From Chrysophaeum taylorii (lineage: Eukaryota; Sar; Pelagophyceae; Pelagomonadales; Pelagomonadaceae), in contig JAQMWT010000400.1 in assembly GCA_029834535.1 (NCBI GenBank), positions 24,537 through 88,536 of the forward strand: DNA of 64,000 bases, given 5' to 3'. Shown piece by piece: positions 485 through 60,949 of this stretch (position 1 is the stretch's first letter; every line of letters begins with the position of its first letter). A model generated the notes under the pieces. It was not told where the DNA came from. It worked only from the letters and a program-made list of their open reading frames with translations, and did no database searches. Position numbers and translations under genes: made by a program.

Positions 485-1450
485 GTGATCGAATCCGAAC
501 TTGGTTCGAGATTCCTCATCGACATTCGGTACATTTTGGAAGAAGACGCAGACGTGCGTGAGGAAGGATCTCCTCCAGTGCTTCCCGCCGCCACTGAGAC
601 CGGCCGCGCGGAAGGTGAATTACGACCGTGGACTCGCCACCGGTTTCACTACGATTTAAAGACGCAAACCCACGACAGATCAAAATGGCGCCTAATAGGT
701 TGACGCCAGCAAAGCTTGAGCGTTTCAGAAAGCAGATCACCGAGTGGTGTCGCATGGAGGCATCCGACCGGCGAACTCTCCGTGGGGGTTCCCTGTACTG
801 ATGCTGCCTAAGAAGGGAGCAGAGGCCGGGACGTCGAATGCTTTTCGTGCTGCAGTTGACTTGCGTTAGCTCAATGATCAGCTGGTCAATGACAGTTGGC
901 CGAATATTCGTCAAGATGATGCTTTAGCTTTTCTTGCCATGCGCCGTTGGGGGGCGTGTATTGATATTCGATGGGGTTACCACAACCTGCGTTTGGACGC
1001 CGCCGCTCAGGATGCCGTCACGATGGTTAGTCCACTTGGAGCCCATAGTTTCTTGCGCTTGCCTCTGGGAGTGAAAACAGCAGGAGCTCTCTTCTGTAAG
1101 CAGATGGATAGCAATTTGTCAACATGGATGTATAAGGACTTTGTCGCGTTTGTCGACGATATTATGATGTGATCGGATGAACTTCACCATCATTTACAAG
1201 TCTTGATTGAAGTGCTGTGCCATTTAGCGCAGCGAGGATATAGTTGACGAACTTCCAAGTTCCACCTCCTCTAAGATGAAATCGAGTTTCTGGGACACAT
1301 TTCGACTCCGTAAGGCTTGAAGCCAAATCCCAAGGCGTTAGAAGCGCTGCAGCAGATGCCGATACCCGGTACGCTACCGAACACGTCCCCGAAGACCCAG
1401 ATTCGATCCTTCATCGGCATGAGCAATTAATGCCGCCGATATGTGAAGAA
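485..1450 (+). pseudogene. gypsy copy 1: leader fused to reverse transcriptase fragment
   Basis: From about 620 the sequence encodes the start of the RT domain in broken frames, with recognisable 'RLTPAKLERFRKQITEW', 'IDIRWGYHNL', 'SPLGAHSFLRLPLGVKTAG' and the catalytic 'FVDDI' box (near 1150). Compared with copy 3 there are stop codons, for example a Gln codon turned TAG near 868 and stops near 1170 and 1245. The deletion joining leader to RT removed gag, protease and the methyltransferase region. The fragment ends where the LINE is inserted. Confidence 0.85.
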
Positions 1451-2902
1451 GAACAAGAAGGGGGACCTCTCCCTGCCGGGCAACTACCGCGGGATCATGA
1501 TGCTCGAGGTCGCGCAGAAGATCGTTTCGAACATCGTCCGTGCGCGACTCAACGTCATCTGCGAGGCCCTCGATCACGAGTCCCAATGTGGCTTCCGACC
1601 CGAGCGCGGTACGTCCGACGCCACCTTCTCGCTCAAGCTAGCGCTGAAGAAGGGGCGTGAGCACGGTCAGGACTCGTAGGTACTGTTCATCGATTTCGTT
1701 AGGGCGTTCGACCGCGTCCCGCGAGAGCTTCTCTGGGAGGTGCTCCTGAAGTTCGGCGTCCCGCCGAAGCTCGTCGAAGTCATCAAGGGCCTCCACCGAA
1801 TCCAGGTCCACTTCTCGGTCAGCGGTGTCGTCGCCTCGGTTGACTCGATCATCGGCGTCAAGCAGGGCGACGTCCTGGGCCCCGTCCTGTTCGTGCTGTT
1901 CATGGCGGCACTGACGACGTCGTTTCGACGACGTCATGGCCGCGCCCCGTGTGTCTACCGTACGCGGAAAGACTTTCAGATGACGAACCGGGGTTGGTCC
2001 GCTCGCGGCGACGAGTTTCCCTTCGATGATTCGGCGTACGCCGACGACGTTGCCTTTCTCTTCTGGGACCGCCACATCGCCGCCAGCGAGACACCGCGCC
2101 TCATCGAACACTGCGACGCCTGGGGCATGGAGGTGCATTGCGGCAACCGACACACGAAAGCGGCGTCCAAAACGGAGATGCTGTTCGTCGCTCGCCGGCA
2201 CACCTGTACGGCGACCCAAAGTCGTTCGACGACACGAACCTCTCGGGCATCGAGCTCGGGCGCGGCCGCTTCATACCGGTCGTCGACCAGTTTAAGTACC
2301 TCGGCTCGGTTCTCTCGCGCGACTGCCGCGACGACTCAGACGTCGACGCGCGGATCAAGAAGGCGTCTCAGGCTTTCGGTGCCTTGCGGGACTGCATCTT
2401 CGCCTCGAAGTCCGTCTCTGCTCGCGCCAAGCGCCTCGTCTATGTCTCGCTCGTCCTGGCCATCCTCCTTCACGGTGCGGAATCGTGGTGCCTCACCGAG
2501 GTCCTGTTCTGCCGGCTGCGGTGTTTCCACGCACAGTGCGCCCGCGTCATGTGTCGTGTGACCCGGAAACACACCTGGCTCCACCACATCTCAAAGGAGA
2601 TCCTGCTGCGGCGCCTCGGCCTCGAGTCCATCGACGTCTACGTCACGCGCCGCCAGCTCCGCTGGGCCGGTCACGTCGCCCGCATGCCCTTCTCCCGACT
2701 CCCTCGCAAGATGCTCTCGTCTTGGGTCCGCTCCAAGCGCCCACCGGGGGCTCCGCAGATAACGTACGGGAGGACGTTCGCCAAGGCACTCCGGAAATGC
2801 GACATCCCCTTCAACTCGTGGCACGACCTCGCACAAGACCGCGCGCAGTGGCGGTCCGCCATCAACGCCCTTTCATCCCTCGCCTCTACCCCAACTGCGT
2901 GA
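1443..2902 (+). pseudogene. LINE reverse transcriptase, broken
   Basis: Non-LTR RT motifs occur in order: 'NYRGIMMLEVAQKI', 'QCGFRPERGTSDATF', motif A 'FIDFVRAFDRVP', motif B 'GVKQGDVLGPVLF' and motif C 'SAYADDVAFLF'. Then come 'YLGSVLSRD' and a C-terminal 'RWAGHVARMPFSRLPRKML' segment typical of LINE ORF2 ends. There is a TAG at about 1678 and a frame change near 2140, so it is not translatable as one protein. No endonuclease domain remains. The clade (RTE- or CR1-like) cannot be decided here. Confidence 0.9.
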
Positions 2903-2990
2903 TTTTGCTCTGTGATCCTGGACCGGCTACAGCCGGCCCAGCCTGGCTCCCATGCCCGGGAGAGGTCCGATGTTAGTTAGTTAGTTAGTT
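1451..2990 (+). mobile_element. 5'-truncated non-LTR retrotransposon (LINE) with target-site duplication
   Basis: The element sits inside gypsy copy 1, flanked by perfect 12-bp direct repeats atatgtgaagaa at 1439-1450 and 2991-3002. Removing it restores the gypsy RNase H region seen in copy 3. The 5' end starts inside the RT domain, so it is 5'-truncated as target-primed reverse transcription commonly produces. The 3' end has two small hairpins (2923-2936 and 2947-2962) and a (GTTA)n tail to 2990. The same 3' end occurs on four shorter repeats in this window. Confidence 0.93.
2923..2990 (+). other. LINE 3' terminal hairpins and (GTTA)n tail
   Basis: CCGGCT/AGCCGG (2923-2936) and CTCCC/GGGAG around ATGCCC (2947-2962) can form two adjacent stems, followed by a short linker and a GTTA repeat. 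Equivalent stems occur in the short elements at 18.5, 31.5, 33.4 and 47.6 kb. In the 18.5-kb copy the first stem has changed bases but still pairs using G-U. A likely role is 3' recognition by the LINE RT (inference). Confidence 0.7.
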
Positions 2991-5540
2991 ATATGTGAAG
3001 AATTATTCGAAGATTGTGGAGCCGCTGATGCGATTGTGTCTTGAAGGTTTTAAGTTTGAGTGGACGCCTGAGTGTCAAAAGGCATGGGACACGATCATCG
3101 AAGCTTTGGTGGACTCTCGCGGAGTTTATCATCCTGACTACGATCTTCTCTTTCAGATCCGCTCGGATGCTTCCAAGGATGGTCTGGGCGCGTATATTTT
3201 TCAGCTCGTGGAAGTCAAGGACGAAACCGGCTAGGTGACACGAGAGGAACGAATGATTGAGTATTGGAGCCGAGCTGTGAAGAAAGAGATGCGGAACTAT
3301 GAGCCCCGCCGGCTAGAGCTACTGGCAGTTATTCTTTCTCTTGAGCATTTTCGCTCTTATATCGAAGGTCACAAGACGATCCTTGAGACGGACCATCGCA
3401 ATTTGACGTTTTTACGAAAGGCGACGCAGTCGTCTGGGCAGTTGGTTCGTTGGGGGATGCGGCTCGCCAATTTTGATTCTGAATTGGGTTACAAACCAGG
3501 GAAGTCGTCGGGAATGAGTATCCCTGACTGTCTCTCTCGCAATCCTATCGATCATGTCATCGAGACGGATGAGTTTGGTGAACCCTTGAACCACGCGTAC
3601 CTAGTATGCCAAGAACTTCCCCGACCTGTCGATGATGAAGGAGTGGAGTACCTTTACCTGGGTGCCATGTCATTCTGTCGTTTGTTACGACGGAGTTGCC
3701 TGTGGAGGAAGAAGAAGATGGTAGCGGCGATCCGATGCAATTGGTCACGTCTCACGCTACGAGACAACGTCAGAAGAAACGTCTGCAGACCCAACCTAGT
3801 ATTTTCCGTGATGCCGATGATTACCAGGAGTACATCGACAAGATTCCGGATAATTTGAGTTGGAAGAGATAGCTAAAGAGCAGATCACTGATGCTACTTG
3901 CGAGGACATTCGTTGTCGCATGGCTCAAGGCCATTCTCTTCGTCGGTATGGACCCAATTATCGCTATCAAGTTGTGAAAGGAGTCCTCTACCGTGCTGCA
4001 CGCGACTTGCACCCGATGATAGTCGCACCCCGTATTCTACGGACGCGCATCATCCGATTGTACCATGACACACCTCTCAATGGTGGTCACATGGGTCGTC
4101 AAAGTACATTGCAGTCGATACTTGAACGTTTTTGGTGGCCCCACATGTCTAATGAGGTGGGTGCTTATATTGCTGGTTGCATAGTGTGCAAGAAAGCTCG
4201 CACGCCGGAACCTAAAAGCGCAGGTCTTCTTCAGCAACGTGTGTATGATGGTGATTGTGCCGTTCTTTGTATGGATTTGTTCGGGCCTTTGCCTAGTGCC
4301 GGTCCCGAGGCGTATCTGATCATCTTTTTCGATCCATTTTCTCATTTCTTGATTCTTGACGTACAGCACCATAAGACCGCTGAGTCAATCCTCGAGTCTT
4401 TCGTCGCGAATATATTACTCAAAGGTTATCTACTTCAGAGGATTCGCACCGACAACGGAAAAGAGTTCGTCAACTAATTGATGGAAGAGTTTTGTCATCT
4501 CTTCAATGTTCGGTATAGTACTACGATTCCGCATCATGCTCAGGCTAATCCTGCGGAAATGGTCAGCCGCTTTATCAAGGCTTTCCTCCGTTCATGTCTT
4601 CGAGACCGCAAGATCACGGTTTGGCCCGAGTTCGCGGAGTACACTGTTTTTTGCTACAATCGTAAGTTCATTCCGGGAACTCAGATCTCACCTTTCATGC
4701 TTCGTCTCAACCGGCAGCCTCTATTGCCGACAGATTATACGATCATGGATCTTGATGTCCGCCGCCTGCCGAAAACTCGCTCCGATGTGGTGGCAGAGAC
4801 TCGCGAGAGGTTGAAATCCTATACCGCTACTACGGTGAACGAAGCTCGCGAGAAGGCTCTTCGTAAACAACGTCTCGCTTACAATGCGGACCATGTCGAT
4901 GTGGAGTATGAAGAAGGTTCACATGTTCTGCTCTATATCCCTTTTCTTCAGAACAAGCTTCGACCGGAATGGCGCGGTCCGTTCATTATAGTGGATCGCT
5001 TGTCTCCTGTCACTTGCAGTATTGAGTCTCTTGATTCTCCTCCTGAACGCCGTTGTGTTCATGTCAGTCAGATCACCCCTGCGATGGTTTCTCCAGTGAT
5101 CGATCGAGCCGTGCCCAAACCCAAGGAGACCTTCCGGGATGATTTCAAGCACGGTAAGTTCGTTGTCTTTCGGATCCCCGATAGCAAACGGTCCGATTGG
5201 CGAAAGAAGATTTACGTGGCTGAAGTTTATGAGCCCTATGATTTTGTGAATGGTCGAGTCGCTCTGCATTTTTTATGCTGATCTTGGTCCCCATGACAAG
5301 GTTTCTTACTACAAGCCTGCCTCACATCTCTCTACTCGCAAGCTGAAGCCGGAATAATACAAGGACGTGGACTGTCGCAGTTTCACCGACAAGTCCGAGG
5401 TCAACAACAGTACCACTCCTTGTGTCACCGACTTCGCTCCGCATGAAATCGACGTGTTGATTCCAAAGTTCACTTTGCGTAGTGGACGCGTCCCCGAGCC
5501 CGTCGTCGAGCGCGTCTACAAATAGATTCGTTCCCGAGAT
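2991..5540 (+). pseudogene. gypsy copy 1: RNase H and integrase, broken
   Basis: After the LINE, the polyprotein resumes with 'NYSKIVEPL', RNase H motifs ('IRSDASKDGLGAYIF', 'ETDHRNLTFLRK'), then integrase. The integrase has an HHCC zinc region ('HDTPLNGGHMGRQ' to 'CIVCKKARTPE', about 4060-4210), core Asp in 'VLCMDLFGPLP', second Asp in 'RTDNGKEFVN' and the Glu region near 4550, and then a C-terminal chromatin- or DNA-binding tail. Stops at about 3232, 3859 and 4475 and a frameshift near 5280 disable it. The C-terminal tail ends near 5525. Confidence 0.9.
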
Positions 5541-5612
5541 GCTCATTCATCCAAGGCTCGTGATTCTCGTCGAGCTCGCTGAGGGCAGCTCGTATTCTCA
5601 GCAGGGGAGTCC

Positions 5613-5937
5613 TGTGGCGGCAACTCCTGACTGCCAAGGCTTACCCGCCCTTCTCAAGATTTGATACCCGTTCAACGGAACGGCTTTTCTTCCTTCCCTA
5701 GTGACGTCATACCTCTCCCTCGAGAGAAGCGTATCTTGCAGCATTCTTGCATTATTCTTGCTAGCATAAACCAACTCTCCATCCTCAAGTTGAGAGGCTT
5801 GGTGAGCGTGAGCAAGGTGTGTGGCGAGCATAAGCGACCCCGAGTCCGTGTTGGCCTCGTTCAGTGAGGTCTAGGGCAAGTCGGCGAGTACCCCCTTTGT
5901 CACCTGAGGGTCGGGAGTGTTTTTCTGTGCCGCCATA
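5613..5937 (+). repeat. 3' LTR of gypsy copy 1
   Basis: It starts TGTGGCGGCAAC and ends CCGCCATA, a near-inverted-repeat pair. It aligns along its length with 46,952-47,289. It contains TGACGTCA at 5702-5709 and the short palindromic segment CCTCAAGTTGAGAGG near 5785-5800, which also appears in the otherwise diverged LTR of copy 3. The exact 3' boundary is set by where the three copies stop matching. Confidence 0.85.
5702..5709. promoter_or_regulatory. TGACGTCA palindrome in LTR
   Basis: A perfect CRE/bZIP-type palindrome lies in the first third of the LTR (the U3 position). The same octamer is kept at the same place in the LTR at 46,952 (47,059-47,066). A function as an enhancer site is inference from position and conservation. 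Confidence 0.45.
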
Positions 5938-18169: not shown

Positions 18170-18532
18170 TACCCTGATCGCCGACTGCGGTTGCGATGGA
18201 GGACGGTGCCTCATGAATCCTGAGCCTTGCGAGGGCATCCCGCCCTCCCGGCGTAGGTTGGCACCTATTCGCCTCCCGGGCGGGCCGGTTGGCAGCCGGA
18301 ACGTTCGCAGTGGGACGGGGTATGGCCGGGGGGCGAAGACGGAAGGTTATCGGCGAGTTGCTTGTCAGTCACATCGCGGTCTCCTCGTCGCATTGCGACA
18401 AGCTTGATGGTCACTCTCCGCCGACCGACCTTTCGGCGCTCCTCGTCTACAGGCCCGTGATTCCGGACTGGCTCCTGTCGGTCCGGCCTGGCTCCCATGC
18501 TCGGGAGAGGTCTGAAGTTAGTTAGTTAGTTA
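18170..18532 (+). mobile_element. SINE-like element S1
   Basis: It starts around 'taccctgatcgccgactgcgg', matching the 5' part of the copy at 47,298 ('ttgcg[g]atggaggacgg'), and ends with the two LINE-type hairpins and a (GTTA)n tail. Its middle matches the minus-strand copy at 33,422-33,723. No clear target-site duplication was found. It ends 163 bp before the probable start codon of the PRMT7-like gene, so it probably lies in that promoter. Confidence 0.75.
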
Positions 18533-22104: not shown

Positions 22105-22139
<35 letters not shown>

Positions 22140-22276
22140 GTCCTGACGACCGCCGCCGACACACAGAGCGCCGCGATCGATGCGGCGAACGCGGCGCCCA
22201 CCATGCCGCTGCGCCGCCCGAGGACCACCAGGGCACCCACGGCTGCCGCCGCAGGCACCAGATTCCTTCTCATCAT
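20540..22276 (-). CDS. CDA-type deaminase fused to a large unknown N-terminal domain
   Basis: 578 aa from ATG 22276. Residues about 8-50 are hydrophobic (one or two possible membrane segments or an anchor), followed by a Gln run from (CAG)n. Residues about 60-390 form a domain I do not recognise ('ERIVVLVTGTGTPRDESLE', 'RVRHIHSETNVFRYDENISF', 'CIHVWQPKTFWEKN'). The C-terminal deaminase has 'GSLCAERNVIGTAL' (C445, E447) and 'PCGACCEWLKKI' (C540, C543), the three-Cys zinc site and catalytic Glu of cytidine deaminase-type enzymes. The substrate, nucleoside or nucleic acid, is unknown. Its start lies 41 bp from the divergent methyltransferase gene. Confidence 0.8.
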
Positions 22277-22317
22277 CCTAACGGCTTTATTTTCAGCCAC
22301 CAGGGGAACTATCTATT
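22277..22317. promoter_or_regulatory. Divergent intergenic region (41 bp)
   Basis: Only 41 bp lie between the ATG of the deaminase fusion (-) and the ATG of the DOT1-like methyltransferase (+). The two genes must share regulatory DNA or use promoter elements inside coding sequence. The short spacing is a direct observation; shared control is inference. Confidence 0.45.
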
Positions 22318-33421: not shown

Positions 33422-33723
33422 ACTAACTAACTAACTTCAGACCTCTCCCGAGCATGGGAGCCAGGCCGGACCGACAGGAGCCAGTCCGGAATCACGGGCC
33501 TGTATACGAGGGGCGCCGAAAGGTGGGTCGGCGGAGAGTGATCATCAAGCTTGTCGCCATGCGACGAGGAGACCGCGATGTGACTGACAACCAACTCGTC
33601 GATAACCTTCCGTCTGCGCCCCCCGGCCATACCCCGTCCCACTGCGAACGTTCCGGTTGCCAACCGGCCCGCCCGGGAGGCGAATAGGTGCCAACCTACG
33701 CCGGGAGGGCGGATGCCCTCGCA
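33422..33723 (-). mobile_element. SINE-like element S3 (reverse orientation)
   Basis: It is the reverse complement of the 3' 300 bp of S1 (18,232-18,530), including the TTAG tail (read here as CTAACTAACTAAC), both hairpins and the 'GCATTGCGACAAGCTTGAT' middle region with few differences. It is 5'-truncated and sits inside the Helitron relic. No clean target duplication could be seen. Confidence 0.82.
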
Positions 33724-34265
33724 ACAAGTTCATCTATAGTGCGCGTGTAGACGCCGGGAGGGGGCTTATCGGTCGGTATTGCGCAGCACGTGTGGGGTAG
33801 GGTGGAGTCGTCGACCCAGAAGAGGATATCCTCGGGGTTGCCGATCGACAGAGAGCCACGTAGAGCTGGACGTGGCAGAAGACGGGCTTCTGGGCAAGAG
33901 GACGCCGAGACTTTGCGGGGCGTCTGCCCCTGGCTCTTGGTGATCGTCTGGCGTCGGCGGGGCTTAAGGGATACAGGTTGGAGGAGGAGCCTCGGTGACA
34001 ACGACACGATCGATCATGTATCTGGTGGTACCGTTGCAGTGGCCGTGCGACGGTTTGTCGAGGTTGCGAAGATCTTAAGCTCGCGCTCAAAGTCAACATG
34101 CCGTTGGTTATCAGGGAGTTGAAAACTCTACTGTAAAGAGCGAGGCGTCGTCTTCCGACCCAGCCTAGTCAGCCGAAAAGAACTCCGACGCCTCGTCTCC
34201 GGGAAAAAAAAAGGCCGCGGTCATTCATGCGCGCGTTGTCAGCATCGACAAACATCTGCCGATTA

Positions 34266-47712: not shown

Positions 47713-48258
47713 AGGCTACGAGATTGTGCGACTATATTGGTCGCCAACGAACGAGTGCCCCGTACGCACGCACTGTATTACGCGGTCCGAATTTATGCGC
47801 GTGCCCTGATCAAGCACGCGGAGTTCCAGCGGACCGAATCGCGTTGAATCGTATACGCGAATTTTATTTCGTTCGTACGTCCCGAGAGACGACGAACACG
47901 CGCGCGAGTTGGAAATCGCAGCGCATTCACCCAGGATTGATTTTTTTATAGCTGAACGGCGGAAGCTGTTAGCGAGCGGGATCGCTACCCACGCCGCGGC
48001 ATTTGGATTGCCAGGCGGACAAGAACTCCGTGAGTGCTGTTTTGACAGCGACAGATCGCGTCATTGTTAACGACGTGCATTGCTTCGAGTGATCGAATCC
48101 GGACTTGGTTCGAGATTCCTCATCGACATTTTGATACAGTATGAAAAGATGACTCGGACGTGCGCGAGGGAGGATCTCCTCGAGTGCTTCCCGCCGCCAC
48201 TGAGACCGTCCGCGAGGAAGGTTAAGTACGAGAGGCCGAGGCAGTCGACGCTACCGAA
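47713..48258 (+). other. Leader region of gypsy copy 2
   Basis: Matches copy 1 from about 141 to 600 ('gagattgtgcgactaNaT' onward). No credible ORF; probably untranslated leader with packaging or primer functions. Confidence 0.6.
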
Positions 48259-49442
48259 TTGCCCCCTGAAGCGCCTCCAGAAGCAGCAATTTCTTCGCCG
48301 ACGAGTCCAACGACCCCGGACCGTGGCGAGCGCACTATTATTGAGCGCGGATCCGTGACTCGACGTCGACTTCGTGGAGACCTCGAGCGGAGACGACGCG
48401 AAAACGAGCGACTAGCTGAGCAATTCGCCCGTGAAAGGGCTGAAGCTAAGGAAGAAGCAGCTCGACTGGAACTTCATTTGCTAAATGAAGCGTTGCGGCA
48501 AGAGCTCGAGACAACGAGGACCTTACGTGAAGAGGTTGATCGATTTCGTCGTGAGCGAGACGAATTAGCAGCAGAACAAGTCATGCGACGTGAGAGCAGC
48601 CGTGAACGACCCGTGAGTCGGCCCGAACCGGAAAGGAGCACTGAAACGGGGGATGAACCTCCGCCCCGAGTCGATACGGAGACTGAGGGTAGGGCGGAAA
48701 CCGAAAATGAAGGTACGAAATTATTACGGGCATTATCGCAGACGTTTGCGGACGCCTTCGAGAAGGCCAGCTTGGGCCGTTCTCGTCGCCCCACTTCCGG
48801 TTTGAAGGCTGATAACTTCAAACTCGTCATCGAAGGCCGAGATCAACGACAATTTGATTTGGATTCGGCAGCGGTGATGCATACCTTGGCGGACGACCAT
48901 ACTCGGTCGAGACGCTACGTTACTTATTGCCCGCGCACTTACGCGATACAGTTGCACCAATTTTCGAGGAGCATTTGCGAACGTACGAAGAGCTCTGCGA
49001 TGAGCTGCCTCGCGGCCCGTCATTTTATTCGAAATTGGATACGGACGACGAAGAGCACGGAGCGGCGATTCGGCGCCTCCGTCGTCTGAACAAAACCTAT
49101 TGTGATAGTGTTTTGGATTATTTTAGATCGACTTGCCGACCTCCGAGCACGCAGCAGGAGCTGCTCGATAAGCTGCGGAAGGTCACTCAGGCTTCAGTTC
49201 CGAAAAAGAGTGGTGAAAGACATGAGCAAACCTACTGCACCAAGTTCCAAATTGAGGCTTTATTGGCCTTTTGTACCGAGTCCAGCCGCACGATGGACGA
49301 CGTCGATATTATCGACCAGCTTGTTAGCGGTTTCGCGCCCAAGGACTTACGGACCTGTGTGCGGACAATGCGGAGCGGTCACCTGGATAGCTTCGTGACT
49401 TTTACGTCGACGGTGGCGCTCGTTGCGAGACATGCCGCATGA
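48259..49442 (+). pseudogene. gypsy copy 2 gag, frameshifted
   Basis: The first frame (48,259 on) encodes a Pro-rich start and a long Arg/Glu coiled coil ('RRRENERLAEQFARERAEAK') and then 'LKADNFKLVIEGRDQRQFDL'. A frameshift near 48,910 moves to the frame ending 49,442 ('LRDTVAPIFEEHLRTYEELC', 'VDIIDQLVSGFAPKDLRTCV'), which looks like a gag capsid helical region. No CCHC zinc knuckle was found. The 'FKLVIEGRDQ' block has a weaker counterpart in copy 3 near 62.5 kb. Confidence 0.75.
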
Positions 49443-49477
49443 AGGATGTGTCAATATGCAGCTAAGAGCCAGCCACT

Positions 49478-51610
49478 GTGGACGTTTATCATGCGACTCT
49501 CACGGTTGACGAGAATGAAGTCGAGGAGGATGTCTTGAGTGACAGACCTCCTCCTGAGCCACCTCCAGACGAAGAAGTGAAAAAAACACCAGAAATGGAG
49601 ATGGGGGCGATAGCTAAGGAGCTGCTATCTAAGCACGCCTCCTTGGTTTGGATACCCATCACCTACACCTTTGTCGTCGTCTATTTTGCTGGCGCTGGAG
49701 GATCACCGTTGGGTATCCGGCGATGCAATGAACTATATGGCAGTTCATTTCGCATTGTTCTGGCTTTGGATGCTTGTCCTCAAGCCCGAGCCACCTTTGA
49801 ACTCAATTTTCCGAAGATTCCCTATGTTTTGCATGAGTTAGGGAAATCTCATCGACGTACATACGACTTGGTGTTGTCGTATTTACATTCAGATTTTTGG
49901 AAGCATTCTTATTTTCAAGCAAGTCCGCCGCGTATCTATGGGTCGACTGCCAATTTGCACTACAGCTACGCACGCAAGGGTGCTACTGTTACTTCTTGGG
50001 TCCTGCGTCATTTCCGCAACGCACCTTATGTAATTGGACTATGGACGCTCGAGCAGGAACCATCAGTGATCCCTCTTGTGCATCACCAATTTTATGTGCC
50101 GCGCATTGTCGATTTTTGTAGTATTACACCCGAATTGCTGTGCTCGCGCACGCGCCTACTTGCCTGCAATGTTCGCTTGGAACTGCCGTTATTATCGCGT
50201 GTACCACCGAATTTACGGGACCGTTTTGGGCCGGCGTTGGGATTTACAGGTGGTCACTCGCTCATTATAGTAAACAGCTTCTCATCTACGCGCCCGGCTA
50301 CCGGCCCTGCCTTCACAGTGACGCGCAACAAATTGCAAATAGGACCTCATTTCTCGAACAACCGTCCACTCATGTTGCAAATGCACCAGGAAATTATGAC
50401 CCTTCCTGCTACGTGGCAATGGGGTGAGAAAGTTTCAGAGACAGCAGCTATGAAGATGCTTGGCAGTATGGTGCCACCAGCGACTATGACGCGGATCGCG
50501 CTAGCAGTGCACAATTCATTTGACCCTTCACTTCGAAATTTGGGTAAGTTGCGGAATATTGCGACGACTACGATAGCCCAACCCGACCACCATAGTCTAC
50601 GGTTTTCACCTTTTGCTGTCGAGTCGCGCATTCCAACGCTCGACCCTGCCACTCGAAGTGTGTCATGGATCTCGCCCGATGACCTCTACACTCCTGCAAG
50701 TCCTGCACCATCAGCTGCTGCCCCCACCACCCCGCCACCACCTTCGGTTACATCGCCTGGGACGGCTCAATCTTTTGCAGGGGGCACCGTCGCCACTGCA
50801 GTTATGCAGAGCAACCAAGCCAACAACCAGCCCTCCGCAACTGCTGAAGAAGAAGGCACCGCGAAGGAGCGACCTGCGTATTTTAATAAGTACGACGTTC
50901 CGTGGGCGGACGCGCCTCACGACGAACATGGTCAACCTTTACCGGTGATGCCTCCTCATTTAGCGGATCAGGAGAGCATGCAGGTCATCCCTCCGACCGT
51001 CGCGCAGGTCGAAGAGGTGATGACTGAATTGGGTATTACAGAGCATCCTGCATTAGATGATGACGAGAAGCTGATGATGAAGCATCTAATCTCGTATTCG
51101 TGGGCATTTTTTTTCGATGATGTGATGAGACCTGTTGATTCACCTGAAGTGACGCTCCGGTTCAAAGAAGAGAACCCGACTCCCGTCAGACTCTCGCCAT
51201 ATCGGTTGTCGAAAGAAAAGATTGAATGTTTGCGGATGCAGATTGAAGAATGGACCCGAGACGGAGTTATTCGTCCCGCGAATTCTCCATGGGGTTTCCC
51301 TATTTTGATGTTGCCTAAGAAAGGTGCTGAGCCTGGCACTTCCAATGCTTACAGAGCAGCTGTCGACCTACGGCGCCTCAATGCATTGCTCAAGGATGAT
51401 AGCTGGCCGAGTGTGAGCATGGCTGACGCGTTGATGTTTCTCATTGACAAGTTTTGTCGTTCCAGTTTGGATATTCGTTGGGGCTATCACAATTTACGAT
51501 TGTCGCTGGATGCACAAGATGTGGTCACCTTCACTAGTCCTCTGGGAGCGTACAGCTACATGCGTCTACCTTTGGGAGTCAAACCAGCCGGAAGTTTGTT
51601 TTGCAAGTAG
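49478..51610 (+). pseudogene. gypsy copy 2 pol: C5-cytosine methyltransferase domain plus RT
   Basis: Residues about 60-345 form a C5-DNA methyltransferase-like domain. Motif I is 'FAGAGGSPLG' (49,685-49,714), then 'FRIVLALDACPQARATFELN'. Motif IV is 'ASPPR' with Arg152 where the catalytic Cys should be (49,931). Motif VI-like 'LEQE' is at 50,048-50,059 and motif VIII-like 'SRTRL' near 50,144. 'FTVTR' and the motif X-like 'GSMVPP' (50,462-50,479) follow. From about 50,870 come an RT linker and RT ('RLSKEKIECLRMQIEEWTRD', 'PWGFPILMLPKK', 'LDIRWGYHNLRL', 'RLPLGVKPAG'). A TAG at 51,608 ends the ORF before the RT catalytic box. Confidence 0.85.
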
Positions 51611-53365
51611 TTGAATACTGACTTGTCGCAATGGCTATATCGTGATCTCGTGGCATATATCGACGATATTCTCGCCGGTCACGCAGATACAAAGAATCAC
51701 TTGCAGTGCCTTGTGCAAGTTATTCCCCATCTCGCCTTGAAGGGGTACAGCGCCAAGATCAAGAAGATTCATTTTATGCAAGAAGTCATTGAGTTTTTGG
51801 GTCATTTATCTACCCCGAACTGACTTCTTCCATCACCAAGATCTTTAGAAGCCATCAGACACATGCCAATCCCTGGCACTTTGTCGGATGCTGACCCTAA
51901 GAAGCAAGTGCGATCTTTCCTTGGAATGGGGAGCTTTTGCCGGCGTTATGTAAGGAATTTTGCGAAAGTTGCAGAGCCATTAAGACAACTGACGTTGCCG
52001 GACGTGAAATTCACGTGGACGAAAGAGTGTCAGGAAGCTTGGGATGCCATCATCGAGGCTATTGTCACGTCGAAGGGCGTCTACCATCCTGATTACTCGT
52101 TGCCTTTTTACATTCGAACTGATGCTTCCGCGCATGGGTTGGGTGCTTACCTATTTCAAAAAGTACCAGTCGTTGACGACGATGGAAGAGAAAGAATCGA
52201 AGAGAGAGTTATCGAGTACTGGAGTCGAACCGTGCCTAAGTCGATGAGGAAGTATGATCCTCGGCGCTTGGAACTCCTCGCAGTACTCTCTGCTCTCGAA
52301 AATTTCCGATTTTACATCGAAGGTCATCAGACGAAGTTAGAGACGGATCATCGTAATTTAACGTTTCTACGGGATTCGAATCATACGTCTGGACAGTTAG
52401 CACGATGGGCTATGCGGCTTGCTGCGTTCGACCGGGAGCTCGGATACAAACCTGGAAGCTCCCCTGGCATGCGTATTTCGGATTGTCTGTCGCGCAACCC
52501 TATCGACAAATTGATCGAGAAAGATGAAGACGGGGAACCGATCAATGAAGCTTTTTTGATTTTCCAAGAAATCCCCACCGATGTCCCTGGCACCGCTTGC
52601 TTCACCTTCTCTTCGGTGACGATGCCTATGCTGACGGACAGCGGACCCACCGCAGCTATGGTAGCAGTTAGTACGCGACAGAACGTACAACCGCCTCAAT
52701 TCTCGTATGAGTCTTGAGCCAGTTGACTCCGTCGAACGTCTCCCTTTTGCGGATCTAGCGGAGGATGAGATCACTCTCGATGAGATAGCGAAAGAACAAG
52801 CTGACGGATTACTACTCGGACGTCGAGCGGATTTTTGTGCGTCTCAAGACAAAAAGCGAGCCTAGGAGACCACCCACAGTCTCCGAAAAGAGGCAGAAAG
52901 GTCGGAGAGACCAACCATAGTCTCTTAGACCAACCATAGTCTCTGGCGAGGCAAAATGCTTGTGCCGTGTCAGTCCGTCGCGCCGGTCAACCGCACAAGT
53001 CGAACAGTAGCCGGCAAATTTTGCTGCTCGACGAGAAGTTTTGGTGTTCGAGATAGCCGTTGATATCCGAGAGAAACCGCACCATGGAAACTAGAGGAGA
53101 CTGACGTTTGTTCTGCGAACGCTTCTGCTGAAGAACGACGCTTAAGACCAGAAGACAAAGATCCTGACGGAGGTAGCTTCACATGCCTACACGTATGCCT
53201 ACGACCAAACATATGGAGGGCTGTGAACCCTGTGTGACAAATTTTCGCCCGGATGAAATCGATGTCCTCCTCACTAACTTCGGTCTTCACAGCAACAAAG
53301 TTCCTGCTGATGTAGCTGAACGAGCTTATCGTACCATTCGTGAGCATGACCTTCGTCACCCTTGA
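51611..53365 (+). pseudogene. gypsy copy 2: RT end, RNase H, remnants of integrase
   Basis: It opens with the RT catalytic box 'VAYIDDILAG' (about 51,650), breaks near 51,821, then continues 51,863-52,717 with 'IPGTLSDADPKKQVRSFLGM', RNase H ('IRTDASAHGLGAYLF', 'ETDHRNLTFLRD') and a linker. After 52,717 only scraps remain: 'LPFADLAEDEITLDEIAKEQ' and, near 53,210-53,365, the C-terminal 'PCVTNFRPDEIDVLLTNFGL' tail. The HHCC and DDE parts of integrase are deleted. Confidence 0.85.
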
Positions 53366-53400: not shown

Positions 53401-53690
53401 TGTGGCAGTAACGCCCATTTCCCCCACTTGCCTGCCTGCCACCTGACTTACCCTGATTGTTGCCTTGGTATTGACCTTGCATTTATGGGGGGGGTGTCAT
53501 CTCGACACCTTCACCTGCGCTTCCACTGGACCCAATGTACCGGGCATTTGTATTGCTTTCTTGCTGTCTTCTTGATATTACCCTCTTTTGATTGTTCGAT
53601 TTCGTGATGGCGTGAGGTATTACGCTGAGATCGGGCGTGTGGTGGTTTCACGCGTGGTTCGGGTAGGGAGAAAGGGTTGTTGAGGCCCCC
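53401..53690 (+). repeat. Possible diverged or truncated 3' LTR of copy 2
   Basis: It starts TGTGGCAGTAACGCCC at the position expected for a 3' LTR after the polypurine 'agtagggggctcc', but does not align beyond the first bases with the 5' LTR. It ends where the LTR of copy 3 begins. Either it is a foreign LTR acquired by recombination or copy 3 interrupted it. Confidence 0.4.
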
Positions 53691-54069: not shown

Positions 54070-57000
54070 CTAGCGCGAGGAGCGCGGCTTCGCCTTACGA
54101 GCATCTCGTGAACGAATCTTCTGGTAAACGCGGGTGATGACCGGTTCAGGAACTCGGCCACTGCGCAAAGTAAACTTGGGGATCAACACATCAATCTCGT
54201 GCGGAGCGAAATCCGTGACACAAGGAGTTGTGTTGGAGGAAATTCTGGACTTGTCGGTGAAACTTCGACCTTCAGCGTCCTTGAACTCGGGCTTGAGCTT
54301 GCGGTGCGAAAGGTGAGAGGTCGGCTTGAAATAAGCGACTTCATCGTTCGGACCCAAATCGGAATAGAAATGTAGAGCAACACGATCAGTTTGGTAATCG
54401 TAAGGCTCGTAAACTTCGGCAACATAAATCTTCTTGCGCCAATCAGAGCGCTTCCGGTCAGGAATCCGGAAAACAACAAACTTACCGTGCTGATAATCAT
54501 CACGGAAGGCTTCTTCGGGTTTGCGGATGGTTTGATCAACGATCGGAGGTACCATCACCGGCGTGATCTGACTAACATGAACACGTCGCTTTTCAGGCGG
54601 AGAGTCGAGAGACTCAATCCTATAGGTGACCGGGGAGAGGCGTTCCTTGATAATAAACGGCCCTCGCCATTCCGGTCGAAGTTTGTTCTGAAGGAAAGGA
54701 ATGTAGAGCAAAACGTGCGATCCTTCCTTGTATTCAACATCAACATGATCAGCATTGTAAGCCAATCGCTGTTTCTTCAAAGCTTTATCACGAGCCTAGC
54801 GGACGATCTTTGTATAATACTTCAATCGTTCGCGAGTCTCGGCGACTGCATCAGATCGAGTCTTCGGCAATAATCGTGTATCAAAATCCATGAGCGTGTA
54901 GTCAGTCGGTAGCATCGGCTGACGGTTCAGGCGCAGCATAAAGGGAGAAATCTGCGTGCCTGGAATAAACTTGCGGTTGTAGCAAAACCCAATATAATGA
55001 GCAAAGTCAGGCCAATCCGTAATGTTCCGGCCCTGAAGGCAAGCACGGAGGAAGGCCTTGATAAATCGGTTGACACGCTCAGCCGGGTTCGACTGGGCAT
55101 GATAAGGAATCGTAGTTTGGTATCGGGTGTTGAAGAGATGGCAAAACTCGCGCATCAACTTGTTCACGAACTCTTTACCGTTGTCGGTACGAATCATCTG
55201 GGGCAAGTAGCCCTTGAGAAGGATGTTAATGACAAAAGACTCGAGGACAGACTCAGCAGTCTTATCGTTCAAAACATCCAGAATCAAGAAATGCGAGAAC
55301 GGATCAAAAAGTACTAGAAGATACGTCTCGGGACCAGCACTGGGCAAGGGTCCAAATAAATCCATGCAAAGAACAGCACCATCACCGTCGTAGACGGGCT
55401 GCTGCAAGAGTCCAGCTCGTTTCGGCTCAGGCGTACGAGCTTTCTGGCAAACTAAGCATTCAGCAATGAAGACTCCAACTTCATTCGACATGTGAGGCCA
55501 CCAAAATCGTTCTTGGATAGCCTGGACGGTACTGTGACGTCCCATATAACCACCGTTAACCGGAGTGTCATGGTAGAGTCGAATAATGCGCTTGCGCAAC
55601 GTAGCAGGTGCAACAATCATCGGGTGCGAATCAGCAGAAATGCGGTAAAGAACATCTTTAACGACTTCGAATCGTTCGTTCGCTCGGGAACGTCGCGGCG
55701 TCTGACCTTGGGCCATTCGGTAGCGAATATCCTCGCAAGTAGCATCAGATTCTTGCTCGCGTGCGATCTCAGCGAGCGTCATATTATCGGGTATCTTATC
55801 GATATAATCTTTGTAAGCAGCAGCATCCTTGAAGATCTGTGGCTCATCGCGCGCACGGTTCTTCCGACGTTGTCTCGTAGCGTGAGACGTAGCCAATTTC
55901 ATCGGATCCTTTTCAGGGTCTTCGTCTTCGTCTTCCGGCAGTTCGGTCGTAATAAACGACATTATGAAGTGGCAGCCGGAGACGGGAACTCCTCGGTCAT
56001 CAACAGGTCGGGGAAGCTCTTGGAACACTAAATACGCGTGGTTCAAAGGTTCTCCAAACTCGTCAGTCTCGATGACATGATCTATCGGGTTGCGTGAGAG
56101 ACAGTTAGGGATACTCATTCCCGGTGACTTTCCCGGCTTGTAACCAAGTTCAGGGTCAAAATTGGCGAGGCGCATCGCCCAACGAGCAAGCTGCCTAGAC
56201 GAGTGCGTCGCCTTACGTAAAAACGTCAAATTTTGGTGATCGGTCTCCAAAACAGTACGGTGCCCTTCGATGCAGGCTCGAAAGTGCTCTAGAGAAAGTA
56301 TAACTGCCAGCAGCTCTAGCCGACGGGGCTCATAATTCCGCATCTCCTTCGGCACAGCTCGGCTCCAGTATTCAATTACTCGTTCTTCTCGAGTCACTCT
56401 TCCGGCATCGTCCTTGACTTCGACAATCTGGAAGAGATATGCTCCAAGTCCATCCTTGGAAGCATCGGATCGGATCTGAAAAGGCAGATCATAATCGGCG
56501 TGGTAGACTCCACGGGAATCAACCAAAGCTTCAATAATCGTATCCCAAGCTTTCTGACACTCGGGCGTCCACTCGAACTTTACACCTTCGAGGCATACTC
56601 GTCTCAACGGTTCCACAATCTTCGAGTAGTTCTTTACATATCGCCGGCAATAATTACTCATGCCGATGAAAGAGCGTATCTGGGTTTTCGGGGAAGAATT
56701 CGGTAAAGTACCTGGAATCGGCATCTTCTGCAGTGCTTCCAGCGTCTTCGGATTCGGCTTCAAGCCTTCTGGGGTAGAAATGTGTCCCAGAAATTCTATA
56801 TCATCCTTGAGAAGGTGGAACTTCGCGGTTCGACCGCTGTACCCTCTCTGTGCCAAATGACACATCACTTCGATCAAAACTTGTAAATGTCGATGAAGAT
56901 CGTCGGATCCCATCATAATATCGTCAACAAACGCCACCAAGTCTTGATACATCCATTTCGAAAGGTCGTTCGCCATTTGCTTGCAGAAAAGAGCTCCGGC

Positions 57001-58959
57001 CGTCTTCACACCTAGAGGTAATCGCAAGAAACTGTGAGCGCCAAGTGGGCTAACCATCGTGACAGCGTCCTGCGCTGCCGGATCCAAACGAAGGTTGTGG
57101 TATCCCCATCTAATATCAATGCATGTCCGCCATCGTCTCATCGCGAGAAAGGCTAAAGCATCATCTTGTCGAATGTTTGGCCAACTGTCATTGACCAATT
57201 GATCGTTGAGCTGACGTAAGTCAACTGCAGCACGGAACGCGTTGGACGTTCCAATCTCAGCTCCTTTCTTCGGAAGCATCAACACAGGAAAGCCCCAAGG
57301 TGAGTTGGCCGGACGAATGACTCCATCCCGGCACCACTCGCTGATCTGCTTGCGGAGACAATCGAGCTTCGCAGGCGTCAATCGGTAGGGCGTCATCTTT
57401 ATCGGTCGCGGATTCGCGTCTTTGAATCGTAGAGACACAGGAGGCGAGTCCACAGGTCTCATAATCGGGTCGAAAAAGGCCCAAGAATATTGCACACAGT
57501 GACGGAGCATCAATTTTGCCTCGTCGTCTAAGTGCGGATTGTCAGGAATTCCCAGCTCCTGCGCAACCTTGTCAACTTCTTCCTTCGTAGGAATTTTAAC
57601 TTTCATTGCTTCGTTGTCCTTGACATGCTCAGGAGTCTGCGGCAGTGGTGCACCCTCGGCATCGCGCGGCGCATCTTTCCATGGCACATCGAACTTTTTC
57701 TCATATTTTAGTTTCACTTCCGGGTGGCTTTTGTTGATCCTTTCGCCTTTGACACGAACACTCGGCTCGCTCTTAATCTTCGGTTCCCGATCTCGCTTAG
57801 GATCTGGCGGAACGTCTAAATTTGGTTGTCGGGGGGGGGCAGCAGAAGAAGCATGAGACGTCCCCGGCTCATCTGTTGCAGGCGGAATCAACGGTACCTC
57901 TGGAGGTTTCCATTTGGTGAGATCTTGAAGATCATCACTCGACACCCATCTTACGACACGTGTGCGCGTGTTTAACAGCGGAACTTGTACGTGACGAAGG
58001 GTGGTTTCATCAATTTGTAAATAATAATCAAACGGTCGGTCTGCAGGACTCAACGCTGACGGCAAAGCTTCGCCGCTCAGGTGAAATTCCTTGGTCACAG
58101 AGTTGTGCAGATCGAGCATTAATAAGGCCATCGTGTCAGGTGGCACGACGGACGCCAAGTGTTTCAACGAGGTCGTCCTGGAGAAGCCGGCCCAATCAAA
58201 ACCAGGGGGCATCGTCAGCAACTCCGAACTCATTTCCAGATTCAGAGATCTGCAATCGGAACGGTGCGGTCCTACGCGAAGCGGGACACGCGTAACAGTA
58301 TAAGCTGCGTCTGTCGCGGCTCGTGATGATCCTAAATTGTTCATCTGAAGTAAATGTCGTTCGTCGGCGTAGCCAAGTGCTGCGGCGAACTTTTGCTGCA
58401 TATTCTTGCAAGTCTTTGGAACTGCGCGCAAATGGAGCGGATGGCTCGAAACCAACAATCGCACGCGACAGCTCATCAAACTGGGAGTTATGTCGTAAAA
58501 ATTGACGACGTACACGTAAGGGTGCAAACGTGCAACGTAAGAAATAAACGAAGCCTCCTGCTCTATCAACCACATGAAGAAACCAGCCATCTTGCATAAT
58601 TTCATCGTCCAGTGGGTAGCGGTAACTCCTTTCCCAACATCTCTGGAGGTCAAGTTGCACAGAGCGGAGTGTACGCAGGGTGGCGACGCGACACACACCG
58701 ACGACGACCATTCCGCGTAGGGTAAATAAGATTCAATCAACCGTAACGTTGTAACATAGCGACCACACAGTGTGTGCTGCACCACAGGAATATTCGGAAA
58801 GTTCTTGTGGTGGATCTGGTTGGCGGTGTCCGACGCATCGAGTGCTAGCACGACTCGAAACAACGTCCCACACGTTTCGTTGGCTCGTTGAGACCTAAAG
58901 TACTGCCTCCGGCTCCACTGAACAGCATCACCACCTTGCGATAAGTGATTGGAAGCCAT
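54070..58959 (-). pseudogene. gypsy copy 3 pol: methyltransferase (most), RT, RNase H, integrase; one stop
   Basis: One frame of about 1,630 codons with a single TAG at 54,796. From the start: methyltransferase from 'FRVVLALDASDTANQIHHKN' on, with catalytic-type 'ASPPC' (Cys codon 58,675-58,677), 'IEQE', 'CRVRLL', 'AYTVTR' and 'ASVVPP'. Then a linker with a Lys/Pro-rich stretch; RT ('CIDIRWGYHNLRLDPAAQDA', catalytic 'FVDDI' near 56,915); RNase H ('IRSDASKDGLGAYLF'); integrase with HHCC zinc site ('HDTPVNGGYMGRH', 'CLVCQKART') and core 'VLCMDLFGPLP', 'RTDNGKEFVN', 'YHAQSNPAERVNRF'; and a C-terminal tail. The first methyltransferase motif is in the overlapping upstream frame. Confidence 0.9.
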
Positions 58960-60074
58960 TGAACCTTTTCATATCGGCGGCGGATCTCCGCTTCGGTGAT
59001 CTCGCGGCATTTCTTTTCATCTTCTTCCGACCTTCGAGCGAAATCGTCGCTGCCTTCAGGTCGTTTGAGGGTGGACTTGTCCGTCATAGCGGTCGTAGCG
59101 TCCTTTTGCACCGTGCTCAGCAGCATCGGAGGGGGGGATTCGTCGCATCGCGTCAAGTGACTAGCGACAGAAACGGTGAAGGAAAGGTTCCCCTTGTCGT
59201 ATCCTTCTTCACATTCTTTCGTAAGTTCGTTGATCGTAGAGACGTTCAACTCATCTTCGTACCTAACGATATCACCAATCGCGAGAACCTCGCCTTGAGT
59301 GACGACCGTCGGCACTTCCGTGGCAGTAACCGCCACCCGAGCAGCGGACCGGTCGCGCTCTTCGCAAGAAGAACACATTCCTTCGACAACTCCCAACTGC
59401 TCGTTCTCAGCAAACGTAGCGACGAAAACCTGTCCCTTTTCCATAGGTTTCGACAAAATAACCGGCAGATTGTAAGTTCGACCGGGCTCGATTTGAAGCG
59501 TGCGCGCAGCATAAGCTACTACTTCTCGTGCGTCTTCTCCCGGAGCTGGGGATAATTTGGTCGTAGCACGTCCCCGCGTAGCCAAGGCTACCTTTCGTTC
59601 CGGCGGCGGGCTTCGGAGGTCTTTAATCGTGCTCAAACGAGCATAAACTCGAGTCTTGACCAGGTCGAGACTCTGCCGAAAGGCATCGTGTTGATGATTG
59701 TAAATCGGTACGGTTATCGGATTTCGATCGTAAATAGACCGAAAGGTCACGATTGGTGTATCGACCCGTTCATCCTTAACTTTAATCTTGTTGCGCCCGT
59801 AGACGACTTTGGTTCGACAAAAACAGATCCGATCATGGGGATAGTCCACGATGGCTCCAAAAACTCGTGTATCGCGCCCTCCCAACAGGAACAGATAGTT
59901 CGTATCGGCTACAATAGCGACAATGGGGGCAGCGAAGTCGTCGGCGAGGGCGACCCGAATGGCGATCCAACGATAGATCGTCGTCGTATTCAACCCTGAT
60001 CCGTACAGCTTGCGCTTTATCGGAAGTTCGCCTTCATCGAAAATCAACTGATCTTTGGTCAACTTTTTTACCAT
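58845..60074 (-). pseudogene. gypsy copy 3: protease-like region and methyltransferase motif I
   Basis: 409 codons. The N-terminal part with the end of the preceding ORF looks like a retropepsin: 'VDGMADVSYIAEKW' could be the D-[ST]-G equivalent (here D-G-M-A) and 'YLFLLGGRDTRVFGAIVDYP' resembles the 'ILGxD' flap-distal motif. A linker with a CxxC pair follows ('CSSCEERD'). The C-terminus is 'ITYRKVVMLFSGAGGSTLGL', methyltransferase motif I, after which the frame is lost and continues in the frame starting at 58,959. Copy 2 has both motifs in one frame, so the break is either a mutation or a programmed frameshift. Confidence 0.75.
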
Positions 60075-60949
60075 TTCTCGGCAATATAAGAAACATCTGC
60101 CATTCCATCGACACCGATGGTCGTCGAGAATTTCGGTCCGTCACGATTCCTGTAGATGTGACAGGCTATAAACGTTAGAGTACCCGTATCTAAACAACTG
60201 AGGGTAATCAAATCATCTTCGATCGTCTTGCCGTCTCTCGGCGTCAACGAAGTGTAAGCACATCGGGCTCTGAATCGCTCATCTCCGGGGTTGGGCATCG
60301 ATACCGCGGCTTGAGATTTCGTATTATCTGTTGTTGGCGTCTTCGCCATAACGTTCGCGGCAGCCTCTTTATCTGGCGGCTTCCGCTCTTCCTCCAAGAA
60401 AATCTCCGAGGGAATAAACGCTGGTAGGGGATCCTGGTCTTCGTAATCCTTGGAAGCAAACAACCCCTCCCATAAATCATTCATTTCGTCGTTCCAGAGT
60501 GCATCTGTGAATTCATTCGTCGCCTGCTGATCCTCATCAGCATCGGCGATCGGTTCTGTGTCAGCTGCGGCTTTGAGTCTGCAGCTGTGCGGTTGTTCTG
60601 GTGGCTTCTTTAGCAAGAAATTCCGAGCTTTCGTCCACCAATCCTGCAGGTTCCACGTCGGCTCGTCTTGGTCCCACTTGAGAACGCTGCTAATCTTCTT
60701 CATAAATCTACCCTTTTCTTCCGGCGGCGTATCCGTGTCTCGATCCGTAGTAACCGAAACCGTTTCGGGGGGGTCCGCAGGAAAAGATGGCGTCGTCCCT
60801 GACGTCAACTCTATCGTAAAATCGTCGTCTGCAATACTCGCGCTTGTCATCGTCTCGTCAGTCGAATGCGCGCACGAGCTATCACTGCAGAAATTCATGT
60901 CTGGCTCACAGCCAGTTCGGTCGCCGGCGGTCATCTCTGGAGGGTCCAA
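60068..60949 (-). pseudogene. gypsy copy 3: acidic gag-pol linker
   Basis: 293 codons, acidic and Thr/Ser-rich ('DPPETVSVTTDRDTDTPPEE'), with 'WDQDEPTWNLQDWWTKARNF'. The end 'SCLDTGTLTFIACHIYRNRD' leads into the protease-like sequence, and the stop overlaps the next ORF by 7 bp. No zinc knuckle seen. Possibly the C-terminal part of gag or a gag-protease junction. Confidence 0.55.

Follow-up and report, generated by a model that had tools for sequence, protein, structure and literature searches.

A predicted C5-cytosine methyltransferase in the polyprotein of a Gypsy retrotransposon family of the alga Chrysophaeum taylorii, and a different one in a Copia family

A methyltransferase domain upstream of reverse transcriptase

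Cytosine methylation is usually directed against retrotransposons, and one that carries the enzyme itself reverses this relation. The question of what it would gain is raised by a 64,000-nucleotide stretch of the Chrysophaeum taylorii genome (assembly GCA_029834535.1, contig JAQMWT010000400.1, positions 24,537 to 88,536; here called the window). An earlier note, made from the sequence alone, had read a C5-cytosine methyltransferase (C5-MTase) in one of the Gypsy-type elements of this window, copy 2, between the gag/protease region and reverse transcriptase (RT). We are highly confident that the domain is a C5-MTase captured by a Ty3/Gypsy long terminal repeat (LTR) retrotransposon. Our best explanation of the whole, to which we assign a probability of roughly 0.6, is that the captured enzyme, encoded in pol, marks new element DNA.

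A search with the Pfam profile for C-5 cytosine-specific DNA methylases (PF00145), proposed as a check in the earlier note, placed the pol open reading frame (ORF) of copy 2 above the cut-off of 22 bits (27.9 bits, E-value 2e-6), as it did the excised domain alone (31.1 bits), and thus bore out a C5-MTase inside a Gypsy-type polyprotein, upstream of RT. All motif strings that had been quoted for copy 2 are present and in order, with spacings of 79 residues from motif I to motif IV and 43 from motif IV to motif VI; a phage C5-MTase has 70 and 40 residues at these intervals, and a Dnmt2-like protein of the host has 62 and 44. The domain had been correctly located, at 49655..50510, but by homology it is longer (Table 1); likewise, ASPPR had been assigned to motif IV at the right position, but its arginine is a lesion, as the other members of the subfamily reveal (see below). 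The pol of copy 2 is 83% identical to that of an element fetched from elsewhere in the genome (L043, over its residues 469-1534), and the integrase region is gone. No gag match was obtained in the part of copy 2 scanned with Pfam (48858-49439 only), and a sister copy (L044) gave a weak match to Retrotrans_gag (E-value 0.039).

The earlier note had also seen the same block in copy 3 and concluded that it belongs to the element and is not a chance neighbor. That conclusion holds, but copy 3 represents a separate subfamily (38% identity to copy 2 over 267 amino acids [aa] of the MTase), and a frame change interrupts its domain, leaving motif I in one ORF and motif II in the next. The pol ORF of copy 3 (54796-58968) alone gave no PF00145 match at E-values up to 10. 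Its Pfam matches (RVT_1, RT_RNaseH, Integrase_H2C2, and rve) follow the Ty3/Gypsy order, as do RT, RNase H, and integrase behind the methylase match in L043, where rve is below the cut-off. In sister copy L042, the ORF is flanked by direct repeats, 90% identical and extending to the ends of the locus, by which LTRs were recognized; no LTR-type direct repeats were seen within L043, L044, and L045 as cut. Pfam gave no match to an aspartic protease between gag and MTase in copies 2 and 3 or in fetched copies of the L042-L044 type, and a DGMAD..YI string common to copy 3 (the ORF at 60068-60949) and L043 was picked out by eye as a possible protease site. When copy 1 was compared with copy 3, no MTase and no sequence upstream of the MTase was matched; copy 1 is interrupted between about 1450 and 2991 and is an internally deleted copy of the copy-3 subfamily. 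The MTase is broken in both window copies that carry one (copies 2 and 3), and copies with an open domain are found elsewhere in the genome.

Conservation and selection across the genome

Further copies were sought in the assembly that contains the window (70.8 Mb, 697 contigs), and loci fetched from it were given L-numbers. The copy 2 ORF yielded at least 77 matches (62 of 1535 first-look candidates scored) and the copy 3 ORF at least 43 (34 of 2054 scored), with pieces of one copy counted apart. We call the subfamily of copy 2 A-type and that of copy 3 B-type. Thirty-one A-type places, mostly from the top of the 77 matches, were examined, leaving out the window itself (L001) and L044 (the same as L004); these places are positions in the assembly, and contigs C25/C521 and C10/C297 look duplicated, so a few may be alleles.

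The earlier note had proposed a survey of other copies, and the domain was indeed present at the same element position in the 31 A-type places and in two B-type copies, open frames included. Stop-free frames reach 1812-2129 aa in the A-type and 3063 and 3067 aa in the B-type. Matches to PF00145 at E-values of 0.1 or below were obtained in seven of eight Gypsy members scanned, including L042 (30.8 bits), L043 (28.2 bits), and L044 (30.7 bits), all above the cut-off. Motif I is of the FAGAGG type in most A-type places (a stop or change falls inside it in two) and reads FSGAGGS in the B-type. The catalytic Cys of motif IV is present in 29/31 A-type places (one of the others, L058, has Ser) and in both B-type copies examined, an A-type count that is favored because the 31 places are among the best preserved of the 77 matches. 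The LEQE that had been noted at the position of motif VI recurs in 31/31 places, with the Glu retained, and we regard this residue, and not the tripeptide ENV, as diagnostic. Motif VIII (CSRTRL) is found in 31/31 and the VPP of motif X in 30/31 (VPH in L043). The B-type copy L071 runs uninterrupted from motif I to motif X, with SPPC, IEQE, CRVRLL, and SVVPP.

Ratios of nonsynonymous to synonymous divergence (dN/dS) were calculated by the Nei-Gojobori count, with places under 90% coverage dropped. Pairwise, the MTase had a median of 0.229 (28 A-type places), and the RT-encoding portion of that ORF gave 0.27 (24 places). In comparisons with L042 and L043, which are 80% identical, the MTase gave 0.066 and 0.065 (at a dS of about 1.64, near saturation) and the RT part 0.043 and 0.041. 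Apparently, therefore, the MTase has been under purifying selection close to that of RT. Between the A- and B-types, identity is 39% in the MTase, 32% in the linker, and 67% in RT, and L043 is 26% identical to the B-type upstream of the MTase. On the basis of these identities and the dN/dS values, capture of the domain most likely preceded the split of the two subfamilies, and the domain was kept thereafter.

Relatives and origin of the Gypsy domain

A search of viral contigs with the Gypsy domain returned two C5-MTases (L069 and L070; 26-39% identity in the matched segments), whose neighboring genes appear phage-like by eye. In profile-profile comparisons, eight Gypsy sequences matched these two phage enzymes plus the host Dnmt2-like protein with a probability of 97.9% (E-value 5.8e-13, 263 columns) and one phage enzyme alone with 96.8% (E-value 2.3e-10, extending to motif X), although such comparisons are favored because the phage proteins had been found with the Gypsy domain as the query. 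The values for host proteins were 15% for the Dnmt2-like protein (E-value 0.0018, N-terminal part) and 0.2% for a DNMT5-like domain. Free of this query bias are the matches to the PADLOC model for DruM/Type II MTase (E-value 2.5e-11) and the PHROGs model for DNA methyltransferase (E-value 1.5e-10), but both collections hold prokaryotic or phage models only and so cannot tell a prokaryotic from a eukaryotic origin. The NCBIfam dcm model matched weakly (E-values 8.8e-5 to 0.0015, far below its cut-off). No relative at an E-value of 1e-3 or below was found in a set of 5.8 billion proteins with the Gypsy domain and the Gypsy alignment (for the alignment, scoring was applied to the 8000 candidates with the most words in common). 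Genome contigs yielded nothing.

As far as these profiles reach, the Gypsy domain is nearer to phage C5-MTases than to the host DNMT5-like and Dnmt2-like proteins, with Dnmt1 and Dnmt3 lying outside the comparison set. Among what could be compared, we lean toward an enzyme of phage or prokaryotic type. The alternative is an origin from Dnmt3 or another eukaryotic DNA methyltransferase (DNMT), with the phage-like look arising from divergence and the choice of comparison set. Motif X of the Gypsy domain is of the VPP type, from which Dnmt3 differs. A profile search of the PDB returned a single chain (8yf3, named as a cytosine-specific methyltransferase, E-value 0.54) and no DNMT1 or DNMT3 chain at E-values up to 10, and the host DNMT5-like domain was unmatched. 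We therefore consider a eukaryotic origin improbable, but to be taken seriously, as the domain is divergent, PADLOC and PHROGs could have returned only prokaryotic or phage models, and the known Gypsy case, KnitGypsy-Dnmt3, carries a Dnmt3 (PMC5890265). The possibility that an unrelated domain resembles a C5-MTase in its motifs by chance, for which the lack of relatives in the large protein set might speak, is practically negligible: Pfam, PADLOC, and PHROGs agree, NCBIfam does so weakly, and the order and spacing of the motifs fit.

A different methyltransferase in a Copia family

A PF00145 search of the genome gave at least 57 matches (123 of 474 candidates scored), comprising two host genes and 55 others; this is a lower bound, because no Gypsy place is among them. 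All 30 inspected of these 55 (L011-L038, L040, and L041) belong to a Copia family, and among the 32 inspected of the 57 or more places there was no further free-standing C5-MTase. The 1952-aa ORF of the representative element L039 encodes, in order, a protease-like DGGAS string (by eye), a PF00145 match (E-value 1.1e-7), a weak integrase-core match (rve, E-value 0.006, 17.2 bits, below the cut-off of 32.6), and RVT_2 (E-value 1.6e-38); an RNase H-like tail lies in the next ORF (by eye), and 89% direct repeats lie near the ends of the locus. The RT active site of L039 reads SVDG, and that of the sister copies L074 and L075 reads SVDD.

PF00145 matched at E-values of 0.1 or below in nine of nine Copia members scanned. 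The motif IV Cys (LPCQ) is found in 30/30 places (32/32 aligned rows) and ENV at motif VI in 31/32 rows (the 32 rows represent 30 places, as L025 coincides with L039 and L020 with L046), counts that are favored because the places were picked by their PF00145 similarity. Motif X was not recognized in the Copia domain. The median dN/dS of the Copia MTase is 0.189 (18 places), and all four chains returned by a PDB search with its profile are cytosine methyltransferases (E-values 0.03-0.33). For the Copia domain, nothing was found at an E-value of 1e-3 or below in the 5.8-billion protein set, and nothing in the viral contigs.

A search with the L039 RT gave at least 145 matches (142 of 1389 candidates scored, pieces counted apart), of which all but five have at least 63% identity; those five lie at 42-44%. 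Among the best 150 of 1670 RVT_2 candidates, none lay within 10 kb of a listed PF00145 place, as judged by eye; these lists do not show which copies are domain-free, because at least one of the 150 (C58) groups by its RT with the family that carries the MTase. Profile comparison between the Gypsy and Copia domains gave a probability of 0.1%, that is, no detectable similarity, but both profiles are shallow, and the Copia profile likewise failed against the C5-MTase reference set (1.6%). Two separate captures would be the simplest reading of these comparisons.

Possible function of the captured enzyme

The host is a photosynthetic alga whose plastid is probably of the red lineage. Light-harvesting proteins account for 84 matches in its genome, each exon being counted separately, and one such protein tested in the PDB matched four long LHCI chains (9vfj), followed by antenna proteins named FCPI- or VCPI-. 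On these proteins, the stramenopile affinity suggested in the earlier note is one possibility and a haptophyte another; a universal 18S primer pattern gave no match. Two host genes are among the PF00145 matches. One (L048, contig C621) combines PF00145 (E-value 6.9e-17) with a following SNF2 domain (PF00176, E-value 2.5e-13), and the other (L047) matches PF00145 with an E-value of 4.1e-19; from their domain make-up and motifs, we take them to be DNMT5-like and Dnmt2-like, respectively. Motif IV of L048 reads TSCVDYS.

In our preferred explanation, translation of the pol frame would yield the MTase as a segment of the polyprotein, with the presumed protease region ahead of it and RT behind, a position that suggests packaging together with RT. 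Packaged with the other Pol enzymes, it could meet the newly made complementary DNA (cDNA) and methylate cytosines before or at integration, so that a copy would enter the genome already marked. The host DNMT5-like enzyme could then maintain the mark, whose benefit may lie in shielding the cDNA against attack by the host or in fixing the chromatin state of the inserted copy. Activity, packaging, substrate, and benefit are all inferred, and methylation of the element's own cDNA, taken by itself, falls a little short of an even chance. More tentative still, and in our view rather doubtful, is an extension to both families, in which two unrelated C5-MTases, independently captured by Gypsy and Copia, each located behind the presumed protease and catalytically intact in many copies, would methylate their own cDNA in the particle and pre-mark insertions in a host with a DNMT5-like gene, a convergence that would amount to a general strategy of counter-defense or of chromatin setting.

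For self-methylation by which the element might escape or shape silencing, as suggested in the earlier note, the sign looked for was a footprint at CpG sites, and this is at most mild. Observed/expected CpG ratios were 1.15 in copy 2, 1.27 in copy 3, 1.05 in L043, 1.08 in L045, and 1.00 in the Copia element L039, relative to 1.29 in the whole window and 1.31-1.43 in three host loci. Pairwise C/T differences between Gypsy copies were 0.069 at CpG versus 0.049-0.061 in the CHG and CHH contexts. For the Copia family (places under 90% coverage and L031 dropped), they were 0.183/0.075 on the two strands at CG, 0.098/0.119 at CHG, and 0.125/0.090 at CHH; the strands disagree, and no inference is drawn. 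TpG/CpA ratios in L045, L043, and L039 were 1.08-1.19 versus 0.70-1.01 in host loci (copy 3 was mixed, with 0.84 and 1.09), which would fit mild CpG decay in a comparison made with host loci and without an MTase-free element as a control.

Several observations weigh against an enzyme that marks element DNA. The Gypsy copies are not strongly depleted in CpG. Copy 2 has lost the catalytic Cys, with Arg instead, and its enzyme is very probably dead; the count of Cys-bearing places elsewhere comes from well-preserved copies. Motif VI is EQE and not ENV in all 31 A-type places and in the B-type, which may alter or abolish activity and is the main sequence-based doubt. In addition, the KnitGypsy domain produced no methylation in yeast, nor did that of SymbioLINE, results that the authors regard as inconclusive (PMC5890265). 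The uniform EQE and the small amount of CpG decay would also suit a real C5-MTase descendant whose substrate is RNA, either the genomic RNA or a primer tRNA, or that binds S-adenosylmethionine (SAM) or nucleic acid without methyl transfer, and RNA methylation has been raised for SymbioLINE-Dnmt (PMC5890265). We nonetheless consider this unlikely, as the catalytic Cys, the Glu, and RxR are largely kept under purifying selection, and the match to the host Dnmt2-like protein is weak and partial compared with that to a phage DNA MTase-like protein. Still less probable is a decaying, functionless passenger amplified by hitch-hiking. Both window copies of the MTase are broken, as such a passenger would be, but the dN/dS values are well under 1 and close to those of RT, the Cys persists in 29/31 examined places, and the domain has been kept across two subfamilies that are 39% identical; we reject this reading as very improbable.

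A mark on new element DNA might alternatively serve to direct or quiet the new insertion, as a tuned self-silencing tolerated by the host, and not to protect cDNA. Effects on insertion-site chromatin and slower transposition are among the options discussed in PMC5890265, and loss of DNMT5a in a diatom lowered the methylation of transposable elements and led to overexpression of young ones (PMC9998398). The observations here would fit this possibility as they would cDNA protection; we hold it to be rather unlikely, and retain the marking of new element DNA by a captured enzyme as the best explanation.

Relation to known systems

Retrotransposon-borne DNMTs were described in 2018 from long interspersed nuclear elements (LINEs), DIRS elements, and Gypsy elements (PMC5890265), in agreement with the statement in the earlier note that such captures are known from dinoflagellates (Symbiodinium) and a charophyte. 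The SymbioDIRS-Dnmt3 domains methylated CG in yeast, and the same paper discusses methylation of cDNA, a protective role against deaminase-like editing or degradation, and effects on chromatin at insertion sites (PMC5890265). KnitGypsy-Dnmt3 of Klebsormidium nitens is the closest in form, being a Gypsy element with a C5-MTase in the Pol ORF, with key residues kept, under purifying selection, intronless, and present in several copies (PMC5890265). It differs in its host lineage and in carrying a Dnmt3, whereas the domain described here is phage-like (among those compared) and has EQE at motif VI. SymbioDIRS-Dnmt3 and SymbioLINE-Dnmt of Symbiodinium are likewise high-copy elements with a C5-MTase under selection comparable to that on RT, but they are DIRS and LINE elements and not Gypsy or Copia, and SymbioLINE is CG-depleted (PMC5890265) where depletion here is mild at most.

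For Copia, the account of Symbiodinium elements in PMC5890265 gives them without a DNMT domain. One sentence in PMC12344493 names LTR Copia and DIRS elements with DNMT3, citing the 2018 paper; this may be a slip, as the cited paper calls its LTR case Gypsy. In our data, a Copia-type ORF with both RVT_2 and a C5-MTase match is seen directly (L039). Phage Dcm-type and prokaryotic Type II (DruM-like) C5-MTases share profile similarity with the Gypsy domain from motif I to motif X, but identity is 26-39%, and the Gypsy domain has EQE for ENV and is fused into a retroelement polyprotein. Other transposon-borne modification enzymes, of different chemistry, are the ParB-methyltransferase of Sola1-1 in Ectocarpus, a DNA transposon (PMC12477816), and an m6A (N6-methyladenosine) demethylase in an orchid Ty3/Gypsy element (PMC9289625).

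Within the literature covered, from which subscription papers, preprints, and supplements largely fell outside, no such element was found for a red-lineage alga, nor a Copia case in its own right. New here are the additional host, the divergent enzyme that the Gypsy elements encode ahead of RT, and the presence in one genome of a second, different enzyme carried by Copia elements; the earlier suggestion of a case separate from the known retrotransposon MTases is plausible on the comparisons made. A further host lineage, an enzyme unlike those of the host, and two superfamilies with unrelated enzymes would point to a repeatable strategy and not a curiosity, and the tens of Cys-bearing copies are material for testing action on cDNA, RNA, or insertion sites.

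Features of the elements and of the window

The positions of the elements and of their recognizable parts are collected in Table 1.

Table 1. Retroelement features in the window, with the Copia element L039 for comparison
Feature	Position	Strand	Size, content, or basis
Copy 1	~624..5654	+	Two stretches covering RT to integrase, copy-3 type
Copy 2 gag region, by position	48226..49442	+	Two overlapping frames
Copy 2 pol ORF	49466..51610	+	714 aa between stops; encodes the MTase domain, a linker, and the start of RT
Copy 2 C5-MTase domain	~49628..50560	+	PF00145; extent by homology to other places in the genome
Motif I, FAGAGGS (SAM-binding loop)	49685..49705	+	Alignment of places
Motif IV, SPPR (Arg in place of catalytic Cys)	49922..49933	+	Comparison with 31 subfamily places
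Motif VI position, EQE for ENV	50051..50059	+	Glu kept in 31/31 places
Motif VIII, RTRLL	50147..50161	+	Alignment of places
Motif X, SMVPP	50465..50479	+	Alignment of places; strongest PF00145 segment covers profile positions 261-321
Copy 2 RNase H (and RT end by homology)	51824..52717	+	PF17917, E-value 1.7e-26; PF17919, E-value 2.5e-24
Copy 2, probable part of 3' LTR	53405..53689	+	Segment precedes the coding part in L044/L045 and follows pol in L043
Copy 3 pol ORF	54796..58968	-	1390 aa; MTase (motif II onward), RT, RNase H, integrase
Copy 3 MTase part	58099..58890	-	38% identical to copy 2; ASPPC at motif IV
Copy 3 upstream ORF	58845..60074	-	409 aa; ends with motif I, FSGAGGSTLGL
Copy 3 further-upstream ORF	60068..60949	-	293 aa; presumed gag/protease side
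Copia element L039	L039:2997-8852 (contig C96)		1952-aa ORF; Pfam

The window also holds a gene for an LmjF365940-type CDD/CDA-like deaminase (20540-22300, minus strand; PF14421, E-value 1.9e-53), about 27 kb from the MTase element; to see in this cytosine deaminase-like host protein a counterpart of cDNA methylation would be speculation. A SpoVS domain, of a bacterial sporulation-protein family, is encoded in this algal genome at 16729-17652 of the window (minus strand; PF04232, E-value 2.4e-18). Two further repeat pairs lie outside the Gypsy copies, one inverted and 97% identical (18227-18530 and 33422-33724) and one direct and 88% identical (12054-12537 and 33726-34250).

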